From: Phenylobacterium sp.
GTDB lineage: Bacteria; Pseudomonadota; Alphaproteobacteria; Caulobacterales; Caulobacteraceae
Direction of reading: 5' to 3'
DNA length: 12,373 nucleotides
Assembly: GCA_019264505.1 (NCBI GenBank)
Contig: JAHUZY010000296.1
Coordinates: 1 to 12,373 of the forward strand
In this document: piece by piece, positions 1 to 11,952 of the stretch
How the letters are laid out: each line of letters begins with the position of its first letter
Position numbering within the stretch: the stretch's first letter is position 1
The notes under the pieces: generated by a model
The model's database searches: none
What the model was told of the DNA's origin: nothing
The model's input: only the letters and a program-made list of their open reading frames with translations
Position numbers and translations under genes: made by a program

Positions 1-777
1 GATCCATTGCAGCCAGAGCGCCCCCGTAAGAGCGGCGCCCAGAAGGATCATGAGCAGAACGTGCAGCCAGGAGAGACCGCGAAAGCCGCCAGCCATCTCT
101 GAGCGGTCCGCCGGGGGCAGCGTCATCTCGTGTCGGAACCAGGCCAGAGCGGTCTGTTCAGGCGACTGGCCCGCCTCGAGCGCCCGAAGCGCGCCGGCCC
201 CGCTTTGCGCCAACGAAAGACCGTCTCTGACGTCGCGCAGCGCGGTGAGCGCGGCAGCGGCGTCATTGGCGGCCTGGGCGCGATGCAGGGCCGCCTGCCC
301 ATCCGTGACCGCCTGCGACCCTGATCCCAGTCGCGTCAGCGCCTCAGGCCGGATTCGCGCGCGAGCTTCGTCGGTGAGCTTCGGAAAGTCCATCATAGAC
401 GCGTAGAACGGCTTGGGCCCCATGGGGCCGCAGCAACCCGCTGCGCCTTCGCCTGCCCCCCCGCCCATGCCAGAGGGCGCCATCATATCTCCCATCATGC
501 CGCCCATACCGCCGGCCGCCGCAGGCGCCGCTGGGGGACCGGCGCCCATTGTGGGGTTGGGGGCCTTCATTCCGCTCATCCCTGAGGCCGCATCGGGGTT
601 CGCGCCAGCTGGCGGCGGATGATGAGCGGCGTGGTCCTCGGCGGGGGCCTGCGCCCAGGCGAAGGTGGATGGTGTTGCGGCGGTTAGAGCCACAGCCGCG
701 ACGGTGGCGGCTCTTAGGGCTGTGACGAGAGGCGCCGACTGGGTGCCGTGCATATGCAGGTCAGATCCCTTATCCAT
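1..777 (-). CDS. Met/His-rich exported membrane protein, probable N-terminal part of a heavy-metal efflux adaptor (partial)
   Basis: The frame is open for 259 codons from ATG 777 to the left edge with no stop, so the gene is truncated by the window. Seen: a signal peptide ending near AWA-QA (residue 42), a His/Pro/Met-rich stretch (HAAHHPPP, then GGMGGMMGDMM), a CCGPMG motif near residue 116, a helical Ala-rich domain with the segment ALAWFRHEMTLPP near residues 212-224, and a hydrophobic span at about 237-258 beginning GLSWLHVLLMILL. This order (Met-rich front, helical domain, WF-REM-LP motif, membrane span) resembles N-terminal regions I recall from proteins annotated as periplasmic adaptors of heavy-metal RND efflux systems in alphaproteobacteria; the diagnostic HlyD domain would lie outside the window. 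ATG 753, in frame, has AAGGGA 12 nt upstream and is an alternative start. Divergent from gap. The gene is secure; the adaptor function is moderate. Confidence 0.7.
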   Translation of the reverse strand, partial: MDKGSDLHMHGTQSAPLVTALRAATVAAVALTAATPSTFAWAQAPAEDHAAHHPPPAGANPDAASGMSGMKAPNPTMGAGPPAAPAAAGGMGGMMGDMMAPSGMGGGAGEGAAGCCGPMGPKPFYASMMDFPKLTDEARARIRPEALTRLGSGSQAVTDGQAALHRAQAANDAAAALTALRDVRDGLSLAQSGAGALRALEAGQSPEQTALAWFRHEMTLPPADRSEMAGGFRGLSWLHVLLMILLGAALTGALWLQWI

Positions 778-790
778 AGCAACGCTTCTA

Positions 791-805
791 GCCGAAAGGC
801 TCGGC
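791..805. promoter_or_regulatory. Short inverted repeat between divergent genes
   Basis: GCCGA-N5-TCGGC is a perfect 5-bp inverted repeat in the roughly 150-bp gap between the leftward Met-rich gene (start 777) and gap (start 931). The gap must hold both promoters, so the repeat could be an operator, but I see no convincing -35/-10 pair or known metal-regulator box. Repeats this short are common in GC-rich DNA. Confidence 0.2.
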
Positions 806-882
806 CGCTTTGAAGGCAAGACGTAAGAGACGCTGCGATGGAGCGTCCCTTACAGCGCCACAGCAACAGAAGGCTCCGCCAT

Positions 883-930: not shown

Positions 931-1980
931 ATGGCAGGGGAGATTCGGGTCGGCGTCAACGGCTACGGGGTGATCGGCAAACGTGTTGCCGATGCTGTGC
1001 GTGCTCAGGCTGATATGCGCCTGGTGGGCGTCTCCGACGTCGCAGCAGACTGGCGGACGCGGGCCCTGCACCGCAAGGATATCCCACTGTTCGCCGCCAC
1101 GTCCGAAGCACATGAGCACCTCGCGGCAAATCGGATTCCCGTGGAAGGGCGTCTGCAGGATCTGCTTGGAACCGTCGATGTCGTCGTAGACTGCACACCC
1201 AAGCGGGTCGCTGCGGAGAATGTGCCGGTCTATCGCCAACTCGGCCGGAAGTTCATCGTGCAGGGCGGCGAAAAGCACGGCGTCACCGGTCACTCCTTCG
1301 TCGCGGAGTCCAAGTATCAAAGCGCAGTCGGCCTCGACGCGACCCGCGTCGTCTCCTGCAATACGACGGCGACGGTGCGGACCTTGACCGCCCTGAAGCG
1401 GGCTGGGTTGCTCCGGCGCGCTCGCGGCACGCTCATGCGGCGCGCCACCGACCCGTGGGAGAGTCACCTTGGCGGTATCGTCAACACCCTCGTCCCGGAA
1501 CCGGAGATCCCGAGCCACCAAGGTCCTGATGCTCAGACGGTCGACCCGGACCTCGATGTGCTGACCATGGCCGTCAAGGTCCCCGAGACGATCGCCCACC
1601 TCCACTACTGGTCGGTTCAGCTTTCCCGAAGCGCCCCGAAGGAGGAGGTGCTGGACGCCTTCCGCGCGTCACCCCGCATTTTCCTCATGCCCGACAGCTA
1701 TGGCCTAGCCGCGATCAATGCGGTCAAGGAGCTGATGGCGGACCTCGGCCGCTCCCGGGGCGATCTCTACGAGGTTGCGCTTTGGTCCGACATGCTGCGC
1801 GTGGAGGGCGATGAGGTGTTCTATACCTACATGGTCGACAACCAGGCTATTGTTGTGCCTGAGACGATCGACGCCATCCGGGCGCTCGCCGGCCGCGAGC
1901 CCTCTGGGGCCGCATCGATACGCGCGACCGACGAGGCCTTGCAGATCTGGCGCGATCCCTTCAGCCCTGCTCCGGGCTAG
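931..1980 (+). CDS. gap: Type II (archaeal-type) glyceraldehyde-3-phosphate dehydrogenase, phosphorylating, NAD(P)+
   Basis: Oxidises glyceraldehyde-3-phosphate with phosphate to 1,3-bisphosphoglycerate in cytosolic glycolysis/gluconeogenesis. The 349-residue product matches the archaeal GAPDH class (about 335-345 aa) and not classical GapA: Rossmann start VNGYGVIGKRVADAV (residues 9-23), QGGEKH (111-116), catalytic-cysteine motif SCNTT with Cys143, RRATDP phosphate region (170-175), SHQGPD (195-200), TIAHLH histidines (220-225) and a C-terminal YMVDNQAIVVPE. Start ATG 931 is chosen for the strong GAGGAGG at 919-925; an in-frame ATG at 838 adds 31 Arg-rich residues that do not fit the family. 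It stands alone on the plus strand between metal-handling genes, convergent with the DUF411 gene. Residues after RRATDP (ESHLGG) differ from the KKGP-type text I know in archaeal enzymes. A bacterial host for this class is uncommon and suggests horizontal acquisition. Confidence 0.93.
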   Translation: MAGEIRVGVNGYGVIGKRVADAVRAQADMRLVGVSDVAADWRTRALHRKDIPLFAATSEAHEHLAANRIPVEGRLQDLLGTVDVVVDCTPKRVAAENVPVYRQLGRKFIVQGGEKHGVTGHSFVAESKYQSAVGLDATRVVSCNTTATVRTLTALKRAGLLRRARGTLMRRATDPWESHLGGIVNTLVPEPEIPSHQGPDAQTVDPDLDVLTMAVKVPETIAHLHYWSVQLSRSAPKEEVLDAFRASPRIFLMPDSYGLAAINAVKELMADLGRSRGDLYEVALWSDMLRVEGDEVFYTYMVDNQAIVVPETIDAIRALAGREPSGAASIRATDEALQIWRDPFSPAPG

Positions 1981-2024: not shown

Positions 2025-2474
2025 TCAGCCATGGCGCGCGAAGACCCGCGTCTTGCCTCCCGGCATGAGCAGCAGCGTCTGGTAGGCCTCGACCTCACCC
2101 CTTGGGGACTCCATGCCGGGAGACCCGAAAGGCATGCCCGGAACGGCGATGCCTAGGGCTTTCGGCCTCTCGCGCAGCAAGCGTGCGATGTCGGCCGGCG
2201 GTATGTGGCCGACCACGACATAGCCACCGACCGTCGCGAGATGGCATGACGACAGCTCGAATGGCACGCCATGCTTGCGTCCGATCGGATTGACGGCCTC
2301 CACGACCACTTCCTTCATAAGGTAACCCGACCGGCGCATGTGGGTGATCCAGCCCTTGCAACAGCCGCAGCTGGCGGTCTTGTAGACCGTCACAGGCGGC
2401 GGGCTCGCCGCGAGGGCGGGTGCTCCGGACACAAGCGCCGCGCTGGCGGCCAGCAGGTATCGACGAGTCAGCAT
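2025..2474 (-). CDS. DUF411 family periplasmic metal-binding protein
   Basis: 149-residue secreted protein of the DUF411 family, found with copper and other metal resistance genes; the molecular role is not settled, and metal binding through its cysteines is the usual proposal. Seen: signal peptide MLTRRYLLAASAALVSGAPALA, the CGCCKGW motif of a thioredoxin-like N-terminal segment, then the family hallmarks SSCHLATV, GYVVVGHIPPADIARLL and the C-terminal PGMPFGSPGME. ATG 2474 is preferred over ATG 2483: AAGGAA at 2484-2489 abuts the first ATG but lies 9 nt from the second. The twin arginine after MLT followed by a hydrophobic run could be read by Tat or Sec. It lies 20 nt downstream of the HMA gene and is probably co-transcribed with it. 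Confidence 0.92.
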   Translation of the reverse strand: MLTRRYLLAASAALVSGAPALAASPPPVTVYKTASCGCCKGWITHMRRSGYLMKEVVVEAVNPIGRKHGVPFELSSCHLATVGGYVVVGHIPPADIARLLRERPKALGIAVPGMPFGSPGMESPRGEVEAYQTLLLMPGGKTRVFARHG

Positions 2475-2494
2475 CTCTGTCATTTCCTTGAGAC

Positions 2495-2749
2495 TTAGCG
2501 GCGCGGGCCGCAGCAGCAGGAGCCGCTGCTTGTCGGGGCCGCCGCGTCCTGTGGGTACAAGGCCGGTGTATAGCCGGCCTTGCTGATCGCCCCCGCCACC
2601 GCAGACGGCTCGCGGTCAGACCGCACATCGACCCGCTTGCTCGGCAGGTCAATGGCGACCTCTGCGGCTGGATCCAGCGCGTTGATGGCGGCGGTTACAG
2701 CTTGGACACAGTGTCCGCAGCTAAGGTCGTTGACGTGATAACGAAGCAA
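2495..2749 (-). CDS. Small HMA-domain metal chaperone (CopZ-like)
   Basis: 84-residue cytosolic protein with one heavy-metal-associated domain, expected to carry Cu(I) or a similar soft metal to an ATPase or a store. Seen: [10 protein letters not shown] with Cys11 and Cys14, the beta-alpha-beta pattern through AEVAIDLPSKRVDV, and a C-terminal tail GSCCCGPRR that adds three cysteines. The usual Met of the MxCxxC motif is Leu. The start is TTG at 2749: AGGAG at 2756-2760 is 6 nt upstream, and an in-frame TAG at 2759-2761 excludes any longer form. Followed at once by the DUF411 gene, so the two form a metal-binding pair at the end of the tkt-tal-gnd strand. Metal specificity cannot be told from sequence; copper is inferred from the neighbours. 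Confidence 0.88.
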   Translation of the reverse strand: MLRYHVNDLSCGHCVQAVTAAINALDPAAEVAIDLPSKRVDVRSDREPSAVAGAISKAGYTPALYPQDAAAPTSSGSCCCGPRR

Positions 2750-2897
2750 TGAAATCTCCTAGTTTGCTGGCCTCGCCTGACCAGATGGGGCTTCCCACGA
2801 TGGCAAGGTCAAGGCCGCGCATCGTTGGTGCAGGCGCCGCCGATCGTCGGCGTTCCGAAGATGAGCGCCGCCGTCGGCACAGCCGGGCCTCGCTCAT
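2721..2897 (-). CDS. Doubtful 58-residue ORF overlapping the gnd stop
   Basis: The ATG overlaps the gnd stop as ATGA (2894-2897), the arrangement of translationally coupled genes, and the frame ends at TAG 2721, inside the first codons of the HMA gene. The first half is Arg/Ser-rich and unconvincing. The second half, [20 protein letters not shown], reads like real protein and recalls the loop region of flavodoxin-type folds (VGSPxW). It may be a small gene, the worn end of a lost gene, or chance in the 144-bp gap between gnd and the HMA gene. Gap codons such as AAA, CTA, GGA and TTA are unlike the neighbours. Confidence 0.25.
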
Positions 2898-3880
2898 TGC
2901 GGCATCTCCACGTGCCCGCCGAACCCGAAGCGCATCGCTGACAAGACCTGATCGGCGAATGTGTGCTCCACGCGGCTGCGATAGCGCGCGAACAACGCCG
3001 CGGAGAGGACGTTGACCGGAACCGCCTCCTCCATCGCCGCGTCGATCGTCCACCGCCCTTCGCCTGAGTCGGAGACCCGGCCTGAGAACTGACTCAGCAT
3101 CTGGTCCTTGGCCAAGGCCGCGGCGGTGAGGTCGAGCAGCCAGGAGGAGATGACGCTGCCGCGCCGCCAGACTTCGGCGATATCGGTCAGATTCAGATCG
3201 AACCGTTCCTCGGCCGACAGCTTGGCCGAGTTCCTGCCCTTGAGGATGTCAAATCCTTCAGCGTAGGCCTGCATCAACCCGTATTCGATCCCGTTGTGGA
3301 CCATCTTGACGATGTGGCCGGCGCCGGCGGGACCGGCGTGAATGTAGCCCTGCTCGGCGCGCGGATCCTCACCCTCCTGCTCCATGCGGTCCGGCGTGCG
3401 CGGAATGGCGCCGAGCCCTGGCGCCAAGGCTGAGAAGATCGGGTCGAGCAGAGCGACGGTCGCCTTGTCGCCGCCAATCATCATGCAGTAGCCGCGCTCC
3501 AGACCCCAGACTCCGCCGGAAGTGCCGACGTCCACATAGCAAAGGTTCTTCTCACCCAGCGCGCGCGCGCGTCGAATGTCGTCCTTGTAGAAGCTGTTGC
3601 CACCGTCGATGATGATGTCGCCCGGCTCGGCCAGTTCGGTGAGTGCTTGGATGGTGTCCTCAGTGGGCAGGCCCGCGGGCAGCATCACCCAGAAAATGCG
3701 CGGTGACACCAGCTTGGCGGCGACGTCCTTCAGCGACGACGCCGCGATCGCGCCCTCTGCGGCGATCGCCTCGATGAGCGGTGGGTTGCGATCGAAGCCG
3801 ACGACGCTGTGTCCCCCGCGCATCAGCCGGCGCGCGATATTGGCGCCCATCCGCCCCAGACCGATGACCGCTAGACGCAT
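2894..3880 (-). CDS. gnd: 6-phosphogluconate dehydrogenase, decarboxylating, short (probably NAD+-preferring) type
   Basis: Oxidatively decarboxylates 6-phosphogluconate to ribulose-5-phosphate. The 328-residue length fits the short Gnd class (about 300-330 aa), not the 470-residue E. coli form. Seen: Rossmann motif [13 protein letters not shown] (residues 7-19), Asp30 at the end of the second strand (GFDRNP), which usually selects NAD+ over NADP+, [10 protein letters not shown], the substrate segment [18 protein letters not shown], and the catalytic stretch [16 protein letters not shown] with its lysine. ATG 3880 begins MRLAVIG, has GAGGA about 10 nt upstream and lies 13 nt after the tal stop; the open frame continues to 4012, but that part only overlaps tal. 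Third enzyme of tkt-tal-gnd. No zwf is in the window, so the 6-phosphogluconate source must be elsewhere. Confidence 0.95.
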
Positions 3881-3893
3881 GGCGCTGTTTTCC

Positions 3894-5090
3894 TCATTGG
3901 GTAGGTGTGGCAGGGGCCGTCTGCGGGCTGTTCGCTGGGGGCGCGTCCGTCGCCCTCTGGCGATCGCCGAGAAGCGTCGTGCGCTTGGCGTCGACTGCGC
4001 CGAGCAGGGCATCCGTGGCCTCCGCGAACAGCGTTATGCCCTCTTCAACGAGGCCACGGGTGACGGCGTCCAGGTCGAGGCCTAGGCGGGCCGCCTCCGA
4101 GAGCACGCGTCGCGCGCCCTCGATGTCCTCGGTGAGCGTGGGGCCGACCGCGCCGTGATCGCGGAACGCGTCCAGGGTCTTGGGCGGCAGGGTGGTCACA
4201 GTGTTCGGCCCGACGAGGGCGTCAACATAGAGCGTGTCCGGATAGGCCGGGTCCTTGACGCCCGTGGACGCCCACAGCAGCCGCTGGGGCATCGCGCCCT
4301 TCGCGTCCAGCGCCTGCCAGCGCTCGCTGGAGAGCAACGTTCGAAACCAGGCGTAGGCGAGCTTGGCGTTGGCGATGGCCACCTTGCCGCGGATCGCCGC
4401 GAGGTCGGCGCTCTGCGGATCGTTTGCCGCAAGCCGCGCATCGATGGCCTGGTCCATCTGCGCGTCGATCCGGCTGACGAAGAAGCTGGCCACGCTGGCG
4501 ATCCGGTCGATCGGCTCGCCCCGCGCCGCGCGCGCCTCGAGCCCGGCCATGTAGGTGTCCGCGACCGCCTGGTAGGCGCCGAGCGAAAACAGCAAGGTGA
4601 TGTTGACGTTGACCCCTGCCTCGACCAGCACCCGCAGGGCGGTTACGCCGGCCTTTGTCCCAGGGACCTTGACCATCAGGTTGGGCTCGTCGACGGCCGC
4701 CCACAGCCGCCGCGCCTCCTCGACGGTCGCCGCGGCGTCGTTGGCGAGGCGCGGCGAAACCTCAAGGCTGACATAGCCGTCCTTGCCGCAGAGCCTGTCG
4801 TAGACACGCCGCAGGTCCGCTGCCGCGGCCTTGACGTCGCCGATGGCCTGGCTCTCGTAGAGGTCTTGCGCGCTCGCGTCGGCCCTGCCGGCGGCCGCCT
4901 GGAAGCCCGCATCATAGGCATCGCCGTGACCCATCGCCTTCTCGAAGATGGAAGGATTGGAGGTGACGCCGGTGAGGCCGTCTTCCTCGACGAGCTTGCG
5001 CAGGCCGCCGTCGGACAGGAACCGGCGATCGATGAAGTCGAGCCAGACCGCTTGTCCGGCCTCGCCAAGTGTCTTCAGACGACTGGTCAT
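3894..5090 (-). CDS. tal: Transaldolase
   Basis: Transfers a dihydroxyacetone unit between sedoheptulose-7-phosphate and glyceraldehyde-3-phosphate in the non-oxidative pentose phosphate pathway. The 398-residue product is of the longer actinobacterial/alphaproteobacterial class. Seen: N-terminal [13 protein letters not shown] (TSNPSIF hallmark), [12 protein letters not shown], the [12 protein letters not shown] segment, and [20 protein letters not shown], whose lysine is the Schiff-base residue. The last 25 or so residues are Pro/Thr/Ala-rich and probably disordered. The ATG at 5088-5090 overlaps the tkt stop as ATGA, so translation is likely coupled to tkt; gnd starts 13 nt after the stop. 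Confidence 0.96.
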
Positions 5091-7174
5091 GAGTGCTTCC
5101 CGATGATGCCACGCGCGATGGCGCAGACATTTTCGATGGTGAAGCCGTAGTGCTCCTGAAGCATGGCCAACGGGGCCGAGGCTCCGAATGTCTTCATCGT
5201 GATCGTGCAGCCGTCGCTTCCGACATAGCGATCCCAGCCCATCGAGCCAGCCTGCTCAACGGCAAGCCGTGCGCGTACCTCGTTGGGAAAAACGTGCTTG
5301 CGATAGGCATCGTCCTGCAGCTCGAACAGATACCAACTTGGCAGGGATACCACGCGCGACCGCACGCCTTCTGCGCTCAGCTTCTCGTGGGCCGCCACGA
5401 CCAGCGGCAGTTCGCTACCAGTGCCGATCAGGATGACCTCGGGATCGCCGCCCTCGCAATCCGCAAGGATGTAACCGCCCTGCTGCAATCCGTCGGCCGA
5501 CGCATACCTGACACGGTCTAGCGTAGGGATCGCTTGGCGGGACAATACCAACGCAGTCGGTACGTTGCTGTGCTCCAGCGCGACCTTCCAGGCGACCGCC
5601 ACCTCGTTGGCGTCGCCCGGGCGGATCGTGTTCAGCCCCGGAATGGCACGCAAAGCTGCGAGATGTTCAACCGGTTGGTGGGTTGGACCGTCCTCGCCGA
5701 CACCGATGCTGTCGTGTGTGAACACGAAGGTGACCGGCAATTCCATGATCGCCGCCAGCCGGATCGGTGCGCGCATATAGTCGGCGAAAACCAAGAAGGT
5801 GGAGCAATAAGGGCGCAGATAGGACAGCGCCATGCCGTTGGCGATCGAGCCCATCGCATGCTCGCGCACGCCGAAATGCAGGTTGCGGCCCGCAGGATCA
5901 CCGCGCTCGAACGAGCCCGCCCCCTCGAAGGTCATTTTTGTCTTCGTCGAGGGCGATAGGTCCGCAGAACCGCCCATGAGCAGCGGGACGTGGGGCGCGA
6001 TGGCGTTAAGCACCTTGCCGCCACTGTCGCGCGAGGCAAGGCCTAAGGCGTCTGTCGGAAAGCTCGGAAGTGCGGCCTGCCAGCCACCGGGCAGCTTGCC
6101 TTCACGGAGCAGGTCGATCTGTGCGGCTTCCCTCGGGAAGGTATTGCGGTATCGGACGAGGGTCGCCTCCCAGGCCTCCCGCGCCGGCCTGCCGCGGGCC
6201 GCAATGGCCCCCTGGAACGCCTCCGCCACGCCGTCCGGCACGAGGAACTCGCTGTCCGCAGGCCATTCATAGACCGTCTTGGTCGCGCGGACGTTGTCCT
6301 CGCCAAGCGGCTCGCCGTGCGCTTTCTCGCTGCCGGCCTTTGGGCTCCCCCATCCAATCACGGACTGTACCACGATCAGTGTGGGCCTATCGTCGGTCGC
6401 CCTGAAGGCGTCAAACGCGCTTGCGAGTGCGGCGGTGTCGTTGGCGTCCCCCACATGGACGACGTTCCAGCCATAGCCCTCGAAGCGTTTGCCGACATCC
6501 TCGGTGAAGGCGAGGTCGGTCGATCCTTCGATCGAGATACGATTGCTGTCGTAGATCCAGCACAGGTTCGAGAGCGCCAGGTGGCCGGCGAGCGACGCCG
6601 CCTCACCTGAGACGCCCTCCATCATGTCGCCGTCGCCACACAGCGCATAGACGTTGTGGTCGAACAGGACGAAGCCGTCGCGGTTGAAACGCGAGGCCAG
6701 CGCACGCTCCGCAATTGCCATGCCAACGGAGTTTCCGCAGCCTTGGCCCAGGGGACCAGTGGTCGTCTCGACGCCCGTGGTGATCCGGTACTCGGGATGG
6801 CCGGGCGTCTTCGAGCCGAACTGCCGGAACTGCTTGATATCCTCCAAGCTGACCGCGGGCTCTCCAGTCCGCTTCGCGTCGGCGGCGACCTCCTTGACCC
6901 CGGCCAGGTGCAAGACTGCATAGAGGAGCATCGAGGCGTGACCGACCGATAGGACAAAGCGATCGCGGTTCGGCCAATCGGGCGTGTCCGGATCGTAGCG
7001 CAGGAAGTCTCGCCATAGGGTGTAGGCTACTGGGGCCAGCGCCATCGGCGTGCCAGGATGGCCGGAATTTGCCTTCTGCACGGCATCCATCGCCAGCGTG
7101 CGGATGGTGTTGATCGCCAGGCTTCTCGGGGAGCCCTCCCCCAATGCCGAATCCATCTTCAGCCACCCCGCCAT
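5087..7174 (-). CDS. tkt: Transketolase
   Basis: Thiamine-diphosphate enzyme that moves two-carbon units between ketose and aldose phosphates, joining the pentose phosphate pathway to glycolysis. 695 residues, full length. Seen: SGHPGTPMALAP (37-48), GPLGQGCGNSVG (140-151), the ThDP/Mg motif GDGDMMEG (180-187) with the later NRISIEG, catalytic Glu438 in HFGVREHAMG, and the signature HDSIGVGEDGPTHQP (487-501). The start is uncertain: ATG 7174 (MAGWLK) and ATG 7156 (MDSALG) are both in frame and neither has a clean ribosome binding site; ATG 7156 lies two bases after the stop of a short upstream ORF with a strong one. First gene of tkt-tal-gnd. The 289-bp gap upstream should carry the operon promoter, which I cannot place. 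Confidence 0.97.
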   Translation of the reverse strand: MAGWLKMDSALGEGSPRSLAINTIRTLAMDAVQKANSGHPGTPMALAPVAYTLWRDFLRYDPDTPDWPNRDRFVLSVGHASMLLYAVLHLAGVKEVAADAKRTGEPAVSLEDIKQFRQFGSKTPGHPEYRITTGVETTTGPLGQGCGNSVGMAIAERALASRFNRDGFVLFDHNVYALCGDGDMMEGVSGEAASLAGHLALSNLCWIYDSNRISIEGSTDLAFTEDVGKRFEGYGWNVVHVGDANDTAALASAFDAFRATDDRPTLIVVQSVIGWGSPKAGSEKAHGEPLGEDNVRATKTVYEWPADSEFLVPDGVAEAFQGAIAARGRPAREAWEATLVRYRNTFPREAAQIDLLREGKLPGGWQAALPSFPTDALGLASRDSGGKVLNAIAPHVPLLMGGSADLSPSTKTKMTFEGAGSFERGDPAGRNLHFGVREHAMGSIANGMALSYLRPYCSTFLVFADYMRAPIRLAAIMELPVTFVFTHDSIGVGEDGPTHQPVEHLAALRAIPGLNTIRPGDANEVAVAWKVALEHSNVPTALVLSRQAIPTLDRVRYASADGLQQGGYILADCEGGDPEVILIGTGSELPLVVAAHEKLSAEGVRSRVVSLPSWYLFELQDDAYRKHVFPNEVRARLAVEQAGSMGWDRYVGSDGCTITMKTFGASAPLAMLQEHYGFTIENVCAIARGIIGKHS

Positions 7175-7463: not shown

Positions 7464-7823
7464 CTACATGTCGTCGTGAGATTTCGGCGCGTCGGCCTTA
7501 GGGGCAGGAGCCGAGGAACCGGCGGGCGGATGAGCGCCCGCCTTGGGCTGGCCCATGCCACCGTGGCCCATCATCATCTCGCCGCACATCTTGTGCATTT
7601 TATCCATCTCAGCTTTGGACATCGGCTTGCCATCCGCCCCCTTCATGGCGCCCATCTGCCCCTTGCCGGCGGGCATCTGACCGCCCTTCATCCGGCCGCA
7701 CATCTCGTGCTGCGAAGCGGTGGCGCTATGAGGCGGGGTCTTCGCTGGCGGACCGTCCGCGAGCGCATAGCTGGCGGAGAACAGCGCCGAAGCGGCGATG
7801 ATCGTGGTGAGGAAGGCTTTCAT
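7464..7823 (-). CDS. Small secreted Met/His-rich protein, putative periplasmic copper binder
   Basis: 119 residues. Seen: signal peptide MKAFLTTIIAASALFSASYALA cut before DGPP, then a low-complexity chain rich in Met, His, Gly and Lys: HEMCGRMKGGQM, MDKMHKMCGEMMMGHGGMG, and an Ala/Pro tail ending KSHDDM. Two Cys (MCGRM, MCGEM) sit in repeated MCG contexts. Such Met/His-rich periplasmic proteins usually bind Cu(I) or Ag(I) by thioether groups; function here is inferred from composition and neighbours. ATG 7823 is chosen because GGAG lies 7 nt upstream and a signal peptide starts there; the frame's 22 upstream residues look non-coding. It lies 101 bp after exaC on the same strand and about 290 bp before tkt. 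Confidence 0.82.
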   Translation of the reverse strand: MKAFLTTIIAASALFSASYALADGPPAKTPPHSATASQHEMCGRMKGGQMPAGKGQMGAMKGADGKPMSKAEMDKMHKMCGEMMMGHGGMGQPKAGAHPPAGSSAPAPKADAPKSHDDM

Positions 7824-7924
7824 GGTCGGGCTCCAAATTCCTGATTGCTGGTAAGGACGCTCGCCGCTCTCCACCATTACGCGGGCCAAAGGCGAGGTTG
7901 CGGCTTCGGATTATTTTCGGGCTC

Positions 7925-9445
7925 TTAGAACAGGCCGCGGGGCTGGTCGTCGTAGCTCACCAGCAGGTTCTTGGTCTGCTGGTAGTGGGCCAGCATCATC
8001 TTGTGGTTCTCCCGCCCGAAGCCTGAGGCCTTGTAGCCGCCAAAGGCCGCGTGCGCCGGATAGACGTGGTAGCAGTTCGTCCACACCCGGCCAGCTTCGA
8101 GCGCCCGCCCCATCCGGTAGGCCGCGCCGCCGTCGCGGGACCACACCCCGGCGCCAAGGCCGTAGGGCGTGTCGTTCGCGAGCCGCACCGCGTCTTCCGG
8201 CGTACTGAAGCGGGTCACGGCTAGCACCGGACCGAAGATTTCCTCCTGGAAGATGCGCATGTGGTTTTCGCCGACAAACACGGTCGGCTGTACGAAGTAG
8301 CCAGCGTCCAAATCGCCGCCCGGCAGCGCACGCTCGCCGCCCGTCAGGCATTGTGCGCCCTCCTGCTTGCCGATCTCGATGTAGCCCAGGATTTTGGTCA
8401 GCTGGCCTTCCGAGACCTGGGCCCCCATTTGCGTCGTCGGCTCCAGGGGGTCGCCGACCTTGATGCTGGCGACGCGGCTGATCGCTCGTTCCATGAAGGC
8501 GTCGAAGATAGATTCGTGCACCAGGGCGCGCGACGGGCAGGTGCAGACCTCGCCCTTGTTGAAGGCGAAGAGGGCTAGGCCCTCCACGGCCTTGTCGAGG
8601 AAGCTGTCGTCGGCGGCCATGACGTCGGGCATGAAAATGTTCGGAGACTTGCCGCCAAGCTCCAGGGTTTGCGGGATCAGGTGTTCGGCGGCGGCCTGCA
8701 TGATCTGCCGTCCCGTCGTGGTCTCGCCGGTGAAGGCGACCTTGGCGATCCGCGGGTTGGCGGCGATCGCCCGGCCGACGGTGCCGCCCGGCCCGGTCAC
8801 CACATTAAGCACGCCGGGCGGCAGGATGTCGGCGGTCAGCTCGGCGAACAGCATCAGTGTGAGTGGCGTCTGGGACGCCGGCTTGATCACGGTGCAGTTG
8901 CCGGCTGCGAGCGCGGGGGCGAGCTTCCAGGCGGCCATGAGTAGCGGGAAGTTCCAGGGGATGATCTGGCCGACCACGCCAAGCGGTTCCTTGAAGTGGT
9001 AGGCGATCGTCTGTTCGTCGATTGTCGAGATCGAGCCTTCTTCGCTGCGGATGCAGCCTGCGAAGTAGCGGAAGTGATCGACCGCCAGGGGCACGTCGGC
9101 GCCGCGCGTCTCGCGGATCGGCTTGCCGTTATCGATCGTCTCGGCGAGCGCGAAGAGTTCGAGGTTCTCCTCCAGCCGGTCAGCGATCTTGTTGAGCATC
9201 CGCGACCGCTCGCTGGGCGACAGCCGCGCCCAGCCCGCCTTGGCCGCGTGCGCCGCGTCCAGCGCCGCCTCGACGTCCTCAACCGTCGACTGCGCGAACT
9301 CTGCGATCCGCGCGCCGTTGATCGGGCTGTGGTCGGTGAAATACTGCCCCCTCAGAGGCGGCGACCAGTGCCCCGCGATGAAGTTGCCGTAGCGGGCGGG
9401 GACCTTGCCCAGGGTCCGCACGGACTGAATGGCGCTCTGGAACAA
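7925..9445 (-). CDS. exaC: NAD+-dependent aldehyde dehydrogenase, ExaC/AcoD acetaldehyde dehydrogenase type
   Basis: Oxidises acetaldehyde (and probably other short aldehydes) to the acid. 506 residues, the usual length of ExaC/AcoD. Seen, numbered from the TTG start: GNFIAGHW (21-28), [20 protein letters not shown] (161-180), [10 protein letters not shown] with catalytic Glu263, the subgroup motif [12 protein letters not shown] with catalytic Cys301, [10 protein letters not shown], and the C-terminal [15 protein letters not shown]. The TTG at 9445 is preferred because AAGGAG (9452-9457) lies 6 nt upstream and the product then matches family length; the longer frame to 9487 also begins at TTG but lacks such a site. 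Divergent from adhP, so the pair suggests alcohol to aldehyde to acid with NADH made at both steps. Confidence 0.95.
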
Positions 9446-9497
9446 GGGGCTCTCCTTGTATTCGCACGCGAGCCGAAGTGCTCGCAACGGCCCTGCC

Positions 9498-9573: not shown

Positions 9574-9594
9574 GCCTTGACAGGGATCAAAGGC
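9574..9594 (+). promoter_or_regulatory. Imperfect inverted repeat with TTGACA, possible adhP promoter part
   Basis: GCCTTGA and TCAAAGGC, separated by 6 nt, pair with one bulged T. The first arm carries TTGACA at 9577-9582, a perfect -35 hexamer, on the adhP strand 67 bp before its start. No good -10 box lies 16-18 nt downstream (the match there is GC-rich), so the promoter call is weak. A regulator overlapping the -35 is possible. Confidence 0.3.
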
Positions 9595-9649: not shown

Positions 9650-10675
9650 ATGGCGACGATGATGAAAGCCGCAGTCGTGCGGGAGTTCGGCAGGCCTCTA
9701 GCGATCGAGGAGGTCCCCATCCCGACGCCGGGACCGGATCAGGTTCTCGTGCGCCTGGCTGCCACCGGCGTCTGTCACACCGACCTGCACGCCGCCAAGG
9801 GCGACTGGCCGGTGAAGCCGAACCCACCGTTCATCCCCGGCCACGAGGGCGTGGGTGTGGTGGTCGGGGTCGGCGCGAACGTGCAGAGGGTGCGGGAGGG
9901 CGACCGCGTCGGCGTGCCCTGGCTGCATACCGCGTGCGGCTACTGCCCCCACTGCCGCACCGGCTGGGAGACCCTCTGCGGCTCTCAGAAGAACACCGGC
10001 TATTCCGTGAACGGCAGCTTCGCCGAATACGCAGTGGCGGATCCCAATTATGTGGGCCGCTTGCCCGATGGCCTGGATTGGGGCGCCGCAGCGCCGCTGC
10101 TTTGCGCCGGCGTGACCGTTTACAAGGGCCTGAAGGAAACCGAGGTGAGGCCCGGGCAGTGGGTCGCGATCTCGGGGATCGGCGGGCTGGGACACTTGGC
10201 GGTTCAGTACGCGAAGGCCATGGGCATGCACGTCGCGGCGATCGACATCCATCCCGAAAAGCTGGCGTTGGCCAAGCAGCTGGGTGCAGACCTCACGCTG
10301 CACGGCCGGGACACCGACCCCGTGGCCGAGATCCAAAAGCAGATCGGCGGGGTTCACGGGGTGCTTGTCACGGCCGTTTCGCCGGCGGCCTTCGAGCAGG
10401 CCTTCGGGGCGCTGCGGCCGCATGGGACCATGGCCATGATCGGCCTGCCGCCCGGCAAGTTCGCCATGCCGATCTTCGACACGGTGCTCAAGCGGATCAC
10501 CGTCCGGGGCTCGATTGTCGGAACGCGGCAGGATCTGGAAGAGGCGCTCGAGTTCGGGGGCGAAGGCAAGGTCGCCGCGCATTTCTCCTGGGACCGGCTC
10601 GAGAACATCAACGAAGTCTTCGAACGCATGGAACGCGGCGCGATCGATGGGCGCGTAGTCTTGAGCCTGGAGTAG
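9650..10675 (+). CDS. adhP: Zinc-dependent NAD+ alcohol dehydrogenase, AdhP type
   Basis: Reversibly oxidises ethanol and other primary alcohols to aldehydes in the cytosol. 341 residues, normal for bacterial AdhP. Seen: catalytic-zinc ligands Cys42 (GVCHTDLH), His65-Glu66 (GHEGVGVV) and Cys152; the structural-zinc lobe with Cys96, 99, 102 and 110 (ACGYCPHC...LC); the Rossmann motif GIGGLGHLAVQYAKAMG (177-193) and Asp199, consistent with NAD+. ATG 9650 has AGGAGAGGAAAG upstream (9631-9642); ATG 9659 and 9662 are in-frame alternatives closer to the common MKAAVV start. Divergent from exaC. A long overlapping reading frame in another phase covers the gene but is not real. Confidence 0.96.
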   Translation: MATMMKAAVVREFGRPLAIEEVPIPTPGPDQVLVRLAATGVCHTDLHAAKGDWPVKPNPPFIPGHEGVGVVVGVGANVQRVREGDRVGVPWLHTACGYCPHCRTGWETLCGSQKNTGYSVNGSFAEYAVADPNYVGRLPDGLDWGAAAPLLCAGVTVYKGLKETEVRPGQWVAISGIGGLGHLAVQYAKAMGMHVAAIDIHPEKLALAKQLGADLTLHGRDTDPVAEIQKQIGGVHGVLVTAVSPAAFEQAFGALRPHGTMAMIGLPPGKFAMPIFDTVLKRITVRGSIVGTRQDLEEALEFGGEGKVAAHFSWDRLENINEVFERMERGAIDGRVVLSLE

Positions 10676-11292: not shown

Positions 11293-11523
11293 CGAACGCT
11301 ACGCGGGACGGCGGAACTCGCTCTCCGGTCGCACGGGCCACCAAGGTGCCCAACGGCAAAGTGGCTCCCGGCGCGGCTGTTGCGATCGGGGGGCGTGGAC
11401 GTCTCCGACACCTGCCGCCGAGCGGTCGAACCCCGCCCCTCAAGGTTATCATCGACACCAGAGAGACCCGTCCGACGGACAGCCCGGCATCAAGCCCTCA
11501 AACATAGCAGAACGGAGATGCAA

Positions 11524-11952
11524 TTGCGCGACCGCAGAGAACTTCTGGCCGGCCTTACCCTCGCCGGGGCCGCAGCCGCCATGCCCGCCGCCGCGCAAGC
11601 CCCTCCTCCCAATGGTGATGGGATGTCGATGGATGATTGTGTCGCGCTCTGCATCGCCTCGCATCGGAGCTGTCTGACGAGCGCTCGCCATGTGATGGGA
11701 CAGCCGCAACTGCGCGCGCCGGCGCAGCTCGTGGCGCTGCTGCAGGACTGCGCGGAACTCTGCCAGACCACGGCCAATTCGATGCTCCGGGGTGCGCCGA
11801 CGCACACCCTTCTCTGTCGCGCCTGCGCCGACCTCTGTGAAGCGTGCGCTCAGGCTTGCGACGCCTTCAAGAACGACGCGGTGCTCACCCGATGCGCGGC
11901 GACGTGCCGGGAGTGCGGCGCGGCATGCCGGCACATGGCCATGGAGATGTAG
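11524..11952 (+). CDS. Exported four-helix-bundle copper-storage protein (Csp1-like, DUF326)
   Basis: About 142 residues. Seen: a Tat-like signal DRRELLAGLTLAGAAAAMP ending AAAQA, then a helical domain with 14 cysteines in helix-spaced CxxxC arrays: DDCVALC, RSC, QDCAELC, LLCRACADLCEACAQAC, TRCAATCRECGAAC, ending HMAMEM. This is the layout of Csp/DUF326 proteins, whose bundle core holds many Cu(I) ions on Cys thiolates; Csp1 members are Tat-exported, as here. The start is doubtful: GGAG (11514-11517) abuts ATG 11518 but lies 6 nt from the in-frame TTG 11524, so TTG is chosen; the difference is two residues. The frame extends further back to 11380, without a signal peptide. The 225 bp before it show no clear promoter. 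It is the plainest copper protein in the window and anchors the copper reading of its neighbours. Confidence 0.92.
   Translation: MRDRRELLAGLTLAGAAAAMPAAAQAPPPNGDGMSMDDCVALCIASHRSCLTSARHVMGQPQLRAPAQLVALLQDCAELCQTTANSMLRGAPTHTLLCRACADLCEACAQACDAFKNDAVLTRCAATCRECGAACRHMAMEM

Follow-up and report, generated by a model that had tools for sequence, protein, structure and literature searches.

A predicted type II (archaeal-type) glyceraldehyde-3-phosphate dehydrogenase (GAPDH) gene of Phenylobacterium is carried, as a second copy beside classical gap, by a copper island that has moved recently between genomes of the genus. We put at about one half the probability that it encodes an NAD-linked backup GAPDH within a mobile module joining copper resistance and energy metabolism. 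The gene lies in a 12,373-nucleotide stretch of DNA (the window), which is the entire contig G000:C265 of a 3.2-Mb, 82% complete genome.

An archaeal-type GAPDH beside classical GapA

The open reading frame at 931–1980 on the forward strand translates into 349 amino acids without an internal stop. The product matches NF003251 (431.9 bits, cut-off 185) and TIGR01546 (325.2 bits, cut-off 232.9) over the full length and scores only 19.2 bits against the classical GapA model; the solved structures nearest to it are the archaeal-type GAPDHs 1cf2, 1b7g, 2czc and 2yyy. Because the match is full length and over two curated cut-offs, chance was ruled out as the source of the assignment. The earlier note, made from the letters of the window, had called the protein an archaeal-type GAPDH from its motifs; the named motifs are present in the translation, and the family models agree with the call. 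With the enzymes of Methanothermus fervidus (1cf2) and Sulfolobus (1b7g), the predicted phosphorylating GAPDH shares the family and the full-length match, the motifs QGGEKH and SCNTT, and the residues Cys140 (in SCNTT) and His219 (in AHLH; M. fervidus numbering), whereas the island clade has no cysteine at M. fervidus positions 146 and 156.

The window's protein has Cys140 and His219, which we take to be the catalytic residues of the M. fervidus enzyme, and so have 100 of 101 locus sequences (L204, the exception, is cut short); both residues, with the flanking site residues, are kept in the 100 full-length locus sequences, which span several phyla. The cofactor site departs from that of the NADP-preferring archaeal GAPDHs. 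Lys33, presumably a contact of the NADP 2'-phosphate in the M. fervidus structure, is Lys in all 121 archaeal-type rows (the Sulfolobus enzyme and 120 related to that of M. fervidus, some of them unnamed), whereas in the island clade it is replaced by Asp, in the window as in 101/101 bacterial-locus sequences (near-copies included) and 14/15 plasmid sequences. Asp at this position usually means NAD, predicting that the island clade uses NAD. Such use would suit the catabolic, ATP-forming direction.

A classical gap gene is also present in the window's genome, on contig C507. The earlier note had suggested looking for such a second gene, and classical GAPDH-I was likewise found over its cut-off in 49 of 50 other carrier genomes (50 of 80 searched), the sole exception being a Lautropia genome assembled from a metagenome. 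A housekeeping role for the type II enzyme is thereby ruled out. The family is also rare: it occurs over cut-off in 19 of 298 genomes of the window's order and, at E ≤ 1e-40, in 3 of 387 genomes of a class-level sample, the window's own genome being counted in both. Thus, unlike its archaeal relatives, the island gene is an accessory gene, found in genomes with classical gap, and a second isozyme in its host. Its carriers include genomes and plasmids labelled Pseudomonadota, Bacteroidota, Actinomycetota and Deinococcota, among others. One genome (G319:C2) has three type II copies within 70 kb (L201, L203 and L204), of which L204 is broken by an in-frame stop.

A copper island shared between Phenylobacterium genomes

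Towards the left edge of the window, the GAPDH gene is flanked by a gene for a Met-rich, signal-peptide-like protein (1–819, reverse strand, open at the edge) with no NCBIfam or Pfam match at 0.001. On its other side are a DUF411 protein (2025–2483, reverse strand; PF04214, 86 bits; a relative of PDB 6wis) and an HMA/CopZ-like metallochaperone (2495–2749, reverse strand), which is over the Pfam cut-off for HMA and below those of the CopZ models. These are the neighbours that the earlier note had described, although its 'efflux-type' label for the Met-rich protein has no family match behind it. Absent from that note were a gnd-related gene for a short 6-phosphogluconate dehydrogenase (6PGDH; 2894–3880, reverse strand; open reading frame from 4012, likely start near 3880), a transaldolase gene (tal; 3894–5090, reverse strand; mycobacterial/PRK03343 type) and a second transketolase gene (tkt; 5087–7174, reverse strand), a fragment of the housekeeping tkt adjoining gapA on C507. 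Also absent from it were the genes for an aldehyde dehydrogenase (ALDH; 7925–9487, reverse strand; ExaC-like, under the cut-off of that model), a Zn-dependent alcohol dehydrogenase (ADH; 9650–10675, forward strand; AdhP type, over cut-off) and a Cys-rich, four-helix copper-storage-like protein (Csp) with a leader (11518–11952, forward strand; open reading frame from 11380). The Csp-like protein has no Pfam match at 0.001 and matches PDB 3lmf (6.9e-13) and 6zif, RkCSP3 (1.5e-10). A small Met/His/Lys-rich, secreted-looking protein (7464–7889, reverse strand) matches no NCBIfam or Pfam family; among the best 80 of 528 loci, this protein and that at 1–819 are confined to copies of the window's own island.

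The wider setting was taken from strain J426, where 60 kb around the same genes were analysed by labels and by family scans of 34 proteins. This stretch holds two copA-type multicopper oxidases, two CopB, CopC, CopD and DUF411, together with two DUF305 proteins, Csp-like proteins and stretches of metal ATPases; the window itself contributes DUF411, HMA and Csp-like genes. The setting of the gene is a copper island, which gives substance to the metal-resistance neighbourhood claimed from the window. The same gene families make up known copper-resistance loci of plasmids and islands (copABCD, P1B ATPases, DUF411, Csp), whereas the islands described here add a block of central-metabolism enzymes. 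The J426 island also holds a GH94 phosphorylase, whose reading frame was not pinpointed by the scan, and a phosphoglucomutase (L190, 5517–7154), giving sugar phosphate without ATP. In the J367 island (L007), transketolase is in two frames; the housekeeping tkt of J426 is also split, making a long-read error likely.

DNA of the window was found in seven other Phenylobacterium loci, as one 12-kb stretch in five of them and as two pieces in L006; L009 has only the initial 2.7 kb before its contig runs out. Across the 21 pairs of the seven genomes, island identity is 95.0–99.5%, against 77.0–87.1% for what aligns within up to 20 kb around gapA. The window's own genome, which belongs to the same genus group, compares with the seven at 92.1–98.6% in the island and 78.8–87.4% at the gapA loci. 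As the island is far more alike between genomes than the gapA loci are, it was transferred recently between Phenylobacterium genomes.

Relatives of the window GAPDH on plasmids number 37 records, of which 31 are at least 60% identical and 17 are typed as conjugative. In a tree of 77 sequences, all 68 island-type sequences fall on one side of a 100/99 branch that separates them from eight archaeal rows. Genomes of Proteobacteria, Bacteroidota, Gemmatimonadota and Acidobacteriota are interleaved, and plasmid sequences from Acidovorax, Corynebacterium, Rhodococcus and Meiothermus cluster together. The tree of type II GAPDH that the earlier note had called for thus sets the island clade apart from its archaeal rows, which are eight M. 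fervidus relatives only, and with this sampling it points to no donor.

Neighbours and control sites in relatives

Loci were scored alike, with labels drawn from 14 annotated plasmid stretches and the window, a choice that biases the counts towards island genes. The main set is the best 80 of 528 loci and so leans towards the window's protein, and the flanks of some loci are short. Copies of the window's island and one duplicate (L003–L009 and L200) were left out of the counts over 73, 19 and 92 loci and kept in those of upstream patterns, boxes and clusters. Three loci of the order sample, L200, L201 and L198, duplicate L004, L017 and L049, respectively; of the others, L205–L210 come from one genus and L204 is the broken copy. 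For comparison with 60 unclustered control loci, 100 loci were grouped at 85% identity into 43 clusters; Fisher p-values treat loci as independent.

Leaving the window's own island aside, one or more copper or metal markers were found within about 10 kb of the gene in 63/73 loci (from the best 80 of 528) and in 12/19 order-sample loci, against 1/40 classical-gap and 1/20 random control loci. The gene is therefore found mostly beside metal genes in relatives, not in the copper-free contexts that the earlier note had named as the outcome that would speak against it. By cluster, metal markers occur in 34/43 versus 2/60 control loci; this marker set includes P1B ATPases of unproven metal, and copper markers without these ATPases are still present in 22/43. 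Of the seven order-sample loci without a metal marker, six have genes for arginine deiminase or PEP synthase in their place. In 36 of 92 loci (best 80 of 528 plus order sample, filtered), the type II gene has a P1B ATPase no more than 3 kb away. Among the best 80 of 528 loci, the ATPase motif is CPD in 22, CPH in 18 and CPC in 14. The commonest metal ATPase near type II GAPDH is thus of the Cys-Pro-Asp type (ACPDALGLATP), with YN-x4-P and MSGSS; it also occurs in 9 of 20 order-sample loci, and its loci include L010, L015, L017, L023, L030, L037, L048 and L205–L210. The CPD motif was described in 2017 as novel in rhizobial copper ATPases (PMC5552934).

Energy metabolism recurs beside the gene as well. 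Genes of low-oxygen metabolism, which yield ATP in the absence of respiration (for example those for phosphoketolase, acetate kinase, arginine deiminase, PEP synthase and glycogen phosphorylase), occur in 32/43 clusters versus 1/60 controls, in a set that omits tkt and FBA as normal neighbours of classical gap (tkt in 24/40). The arginine-deiminase gene arcA is found in 13 of 73 loci (from the best 80 of 528), and many neighbours of type II GAPDH are sugar-phosphate enzymes. Just outside the window are genes for Prs, an archaeal-type AMP/thymidine phosphorylase (TIGR02645) and a beta-CASP protein. This block, seen in J426 to the left of the window (L189, 1–3576) and in L027, L029, L049 and L082, is often accompanied by phosphoketolase and looks like an RNA-to-acetyl-phosphate energy salvage, as we infer from its genes.

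The gnd gene stands out among the cargo of the window's island. Host genomes have other copies of tkt and prs, plus another, smaller transaldolase, and gnd is found only in the island in 7 of 8 carrier genomes, the eighth island ending at a contig end before gnd. The window's gnd is the only 6PGDH match in its own, 82% complete genome; a set of 100 genus genomes that vary in completeness includes 17 with gnd, seven of them island carriers, and 83 without it. Zwf is present in 8/8 carriers and Edd over cut-off in 7/8, the exception being the incomplete own genome. With gnd confined to the island and Zwf and Edd in the hosts, the island gives an Entner–Doudoroff host a 6PGDH step. Edd is a dehydratase of the Fe–S class attacked by copper. 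In L016, another Phenylobacterium locus, tkt, tal, the type II gene (gapII) and gnd follow one another on one strand, which ties the GAPDH to the pentose phosphate route. All three of gnd, tal and tkt lie beside gapII in only two arrangements, that of the window's island and that of L016. As a general partner of gapII the trio was rejected for most loci, gnd occurring in 2/73 outside the window's own island.

Five regulator patterns were tried within 310 bp upstream of the gene and compared with shuffles, and only that of FNR was clearly above them: the exact TTGAT-N4-ATCAA box occurs in 12 of the best 80 of 528 loci versus 0.2 in shuffles. The 12 loci form two lineages, the window's sister clade, with boxes 55–59 bp before the gene and differing spacers, and Marinobacter, with boxes 144–163 bp before it. 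The relaxed box TTGAY-N4-RTCAA likewise precedes the gene in most sister-clade loci and in Marinobacter, but no FNR-type box lies within 310 bp upstream of the window's own gapII, nor of that of L016 in the sister clade. The one FNR/FixK-type box predicted in the window, TTGACAGGGATCAA at 9577–9590, lies between the divergent ALDH and ADH genes. Over whole loci, we counted 58 relaxed boxes in the 1,442 kb of the best 80 of 528 type II loci (Markov expectation 2.0; repeats from near-identical islands are included) and none in the 1,178 kb of controls (1.7); the order sample (371 kb) has 7 where 0.9 are expected, and the plasmid stretches (376 kb) have 6 where 1.1 are expected. By cluster, boxes are present in 20/43 versus 0/60 controls.

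The CueR-, CopY-, CsoR- and CopR-like patterns, all of them crude, were not clearly above shuffles in the same 310 bp; the greatest excess was that of the CopY pattern with two mismatches, found in 13/20 order-sample loci versus 9.8 in shuffles but in 29/80 versus 40 in the best 80 of 528. An FNR-like regulator inside the islands was rejected: with one plasmid Crp/Fnr protein (from L119) as the only query, relatives were found in 2/80 type II loci (best 80 of 528), 0/20 order-sample, 0/40 gapA and 1/20 random loci, and in none of the J426 stretches. The annotation table of plasmid L126 lists a cyclic-nucleotide-binding protein.

Copper, low oxygen and a proposed backup role

The earlier note had proposed a metal-tolerant replacement for the housekeeping GAPDH, an idea supported only in part. 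The second isozyme, the copper island and the metal neighbours speak for this proposal, whereas the retained Cys–His pair, the copper-operator patterns that did not stand out upstream, the FNR sites of the sister clade and the order-sample loci without metal markers speak against it. We consider it unlikely that weaker inhibition by Cu(I) than that of GapA is what selected the protein and that copper stress is its specific condition of use. The copper setting of the gene is consistent with such selection, and copper is reported to inhibit GapA in Staphylococcus aureus (PMC6350627) and Streptococcus pyogenes (PMC7733945), as the note had stated for several bacteria; Prs, encoded by a further island gene, is also reported to be Cu-inhibited (PMC10249872). 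In addition, 37/41 classical enzymes have a further Cys four residues after the catalytic one, as against 0/100 type II enzymes, which are thus missing one potential Cu(I) ligand. However, the conserved Cys–His pair is itself the presumed target of copper, copper alone leaves the FNR sites and the fermentative neighbours unexplained, and over-expression of gapA in S. aureus did not raise copper tolerance (PMC6350627).

Alternatively, the gene may belong to a FixK/FNR-type micro-oxic energy module whose copper genes merely share its mobile elements, a reading that we likewise regard as rather unlikely. It draws on the boxes, upstream of the gene and across the type II loci, on arcA, and on a common cargo: in Bradyrhizobium at 0.5% oxygen, the genes that depend on FixK2 and have FixK2 boxes include phosphoketolase–acetate kinase, thymidine phosphorylase–MBL, ppsA, usp and CBS genes (Table 2 of PMC9104804), and the islands carry cargo of this kind. 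Beyond such cargo, the islands hold P1B ATPases and further copper genes, unlike this B. diazoefficiens regulon, and the word 'glyceraldehyde' is absent from the main text of that paper. Moreover, the P1B ATPases lie closer to the gene than loose sharing of elements would suggest, the upstream boxes come from two lineages, the window's own gapII has none, and relatives of the Crp/Fnr protein from L119 are rare near the gene. The copper and low-oxygen readings are both live and may be one, because Cu(I) is the form expected in a reducing cytosol (PMC6350627).

A protein that does not function as a GAPDH in the cell, but moonlights or acts on another substrate, is very improbable. A type II GAPDH of Pseudoclostridium, which may be of another clade, was inactive with both NAD and NADP when assayed in an extract (PMC6543838), a finding that also counts against a backup role, but the Cys, His and flanking site residues are conserved across the full-length sequences, and many neighbours are sugar-phosphate enzymes. 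A further reading is arsenate detoxification. The ArsJ–GAPDH pair detoxifies arsenate, and other GAPDH genes are known in metal islands; by annotation names, however, no ArsJ appears in the annotated plasmid tables, nor does it among the 25 of 41 NCBIfam families listed for the 34 island proteins, making this explanation extremely improbable.

We therefore return to the NAD-linked backup GAPDH as the best explanation. The type II enzyme would act as a phosphorylating, probably NAD-dependent second isozyme beside the host's classical GapA, carried by a mobile island in which copper resistance is combined with spare central-metabolism enzymes. Copper and/or low oxygen would disable the housekeeping route at the GapA thiol, Fe–S enzymes and respiration. 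The backup GAPDH would then keep glyceraldehyde-3-phosphate flowing to 1,3-bisphosphoglycerate and ATP, even where GapA is inhibited by copper. Part of the triose phosphate may come from the co-carried gnd–tal–tkt genes by a pentose-phosphate detour, whose gnd step is missing from most sampled genomes of the host's genus. Counting against this account are the missing upstream box at the gapII genes of the window and L016, the two arrangements to which the trio is limited and the 7/19 order-sample loci without metal markers.

According to a 2019 paper, class II GAPDH in bacteria was without functional evidence (PMC6543838), and a type II GAPDH gene name is listed in an accessory element (PMC7448275). 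In the literature collection searched, no paper combines the full type II GAPDH family name with 'copper', and three have the name alone; searches joining the family or the island genes with copper found nothing judged on point, the FixK2 paper (PMC9104804) not being on copper islands. In the genomes and plasmids analysed here, type II GAPDH recurs as an accessory gene in metal islands, uniformly altered at one cofactor-site position and, in some lineages, accompanied by control sites of low-oxygen type. If the backup role is true, resistance islands carry replacements for cellular targets of copper. A broader reading, which we regard as doubtful, is that bacteria exchange a mobile, copper-proof and oxygen-independent spare central metabolism, with an NAD-dependent type II GAPDH standing in for Cu-poisoned GapA, gnd–tal–tkt leading round the Fe–S enzyme Edd, a second Prs substituting for the Cu-inhibited one, and archaeal-type RNA phosphorolysis for ATP. 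Were it true, metal resistance would consist not of export of the metal alone but of replacing its targets too.
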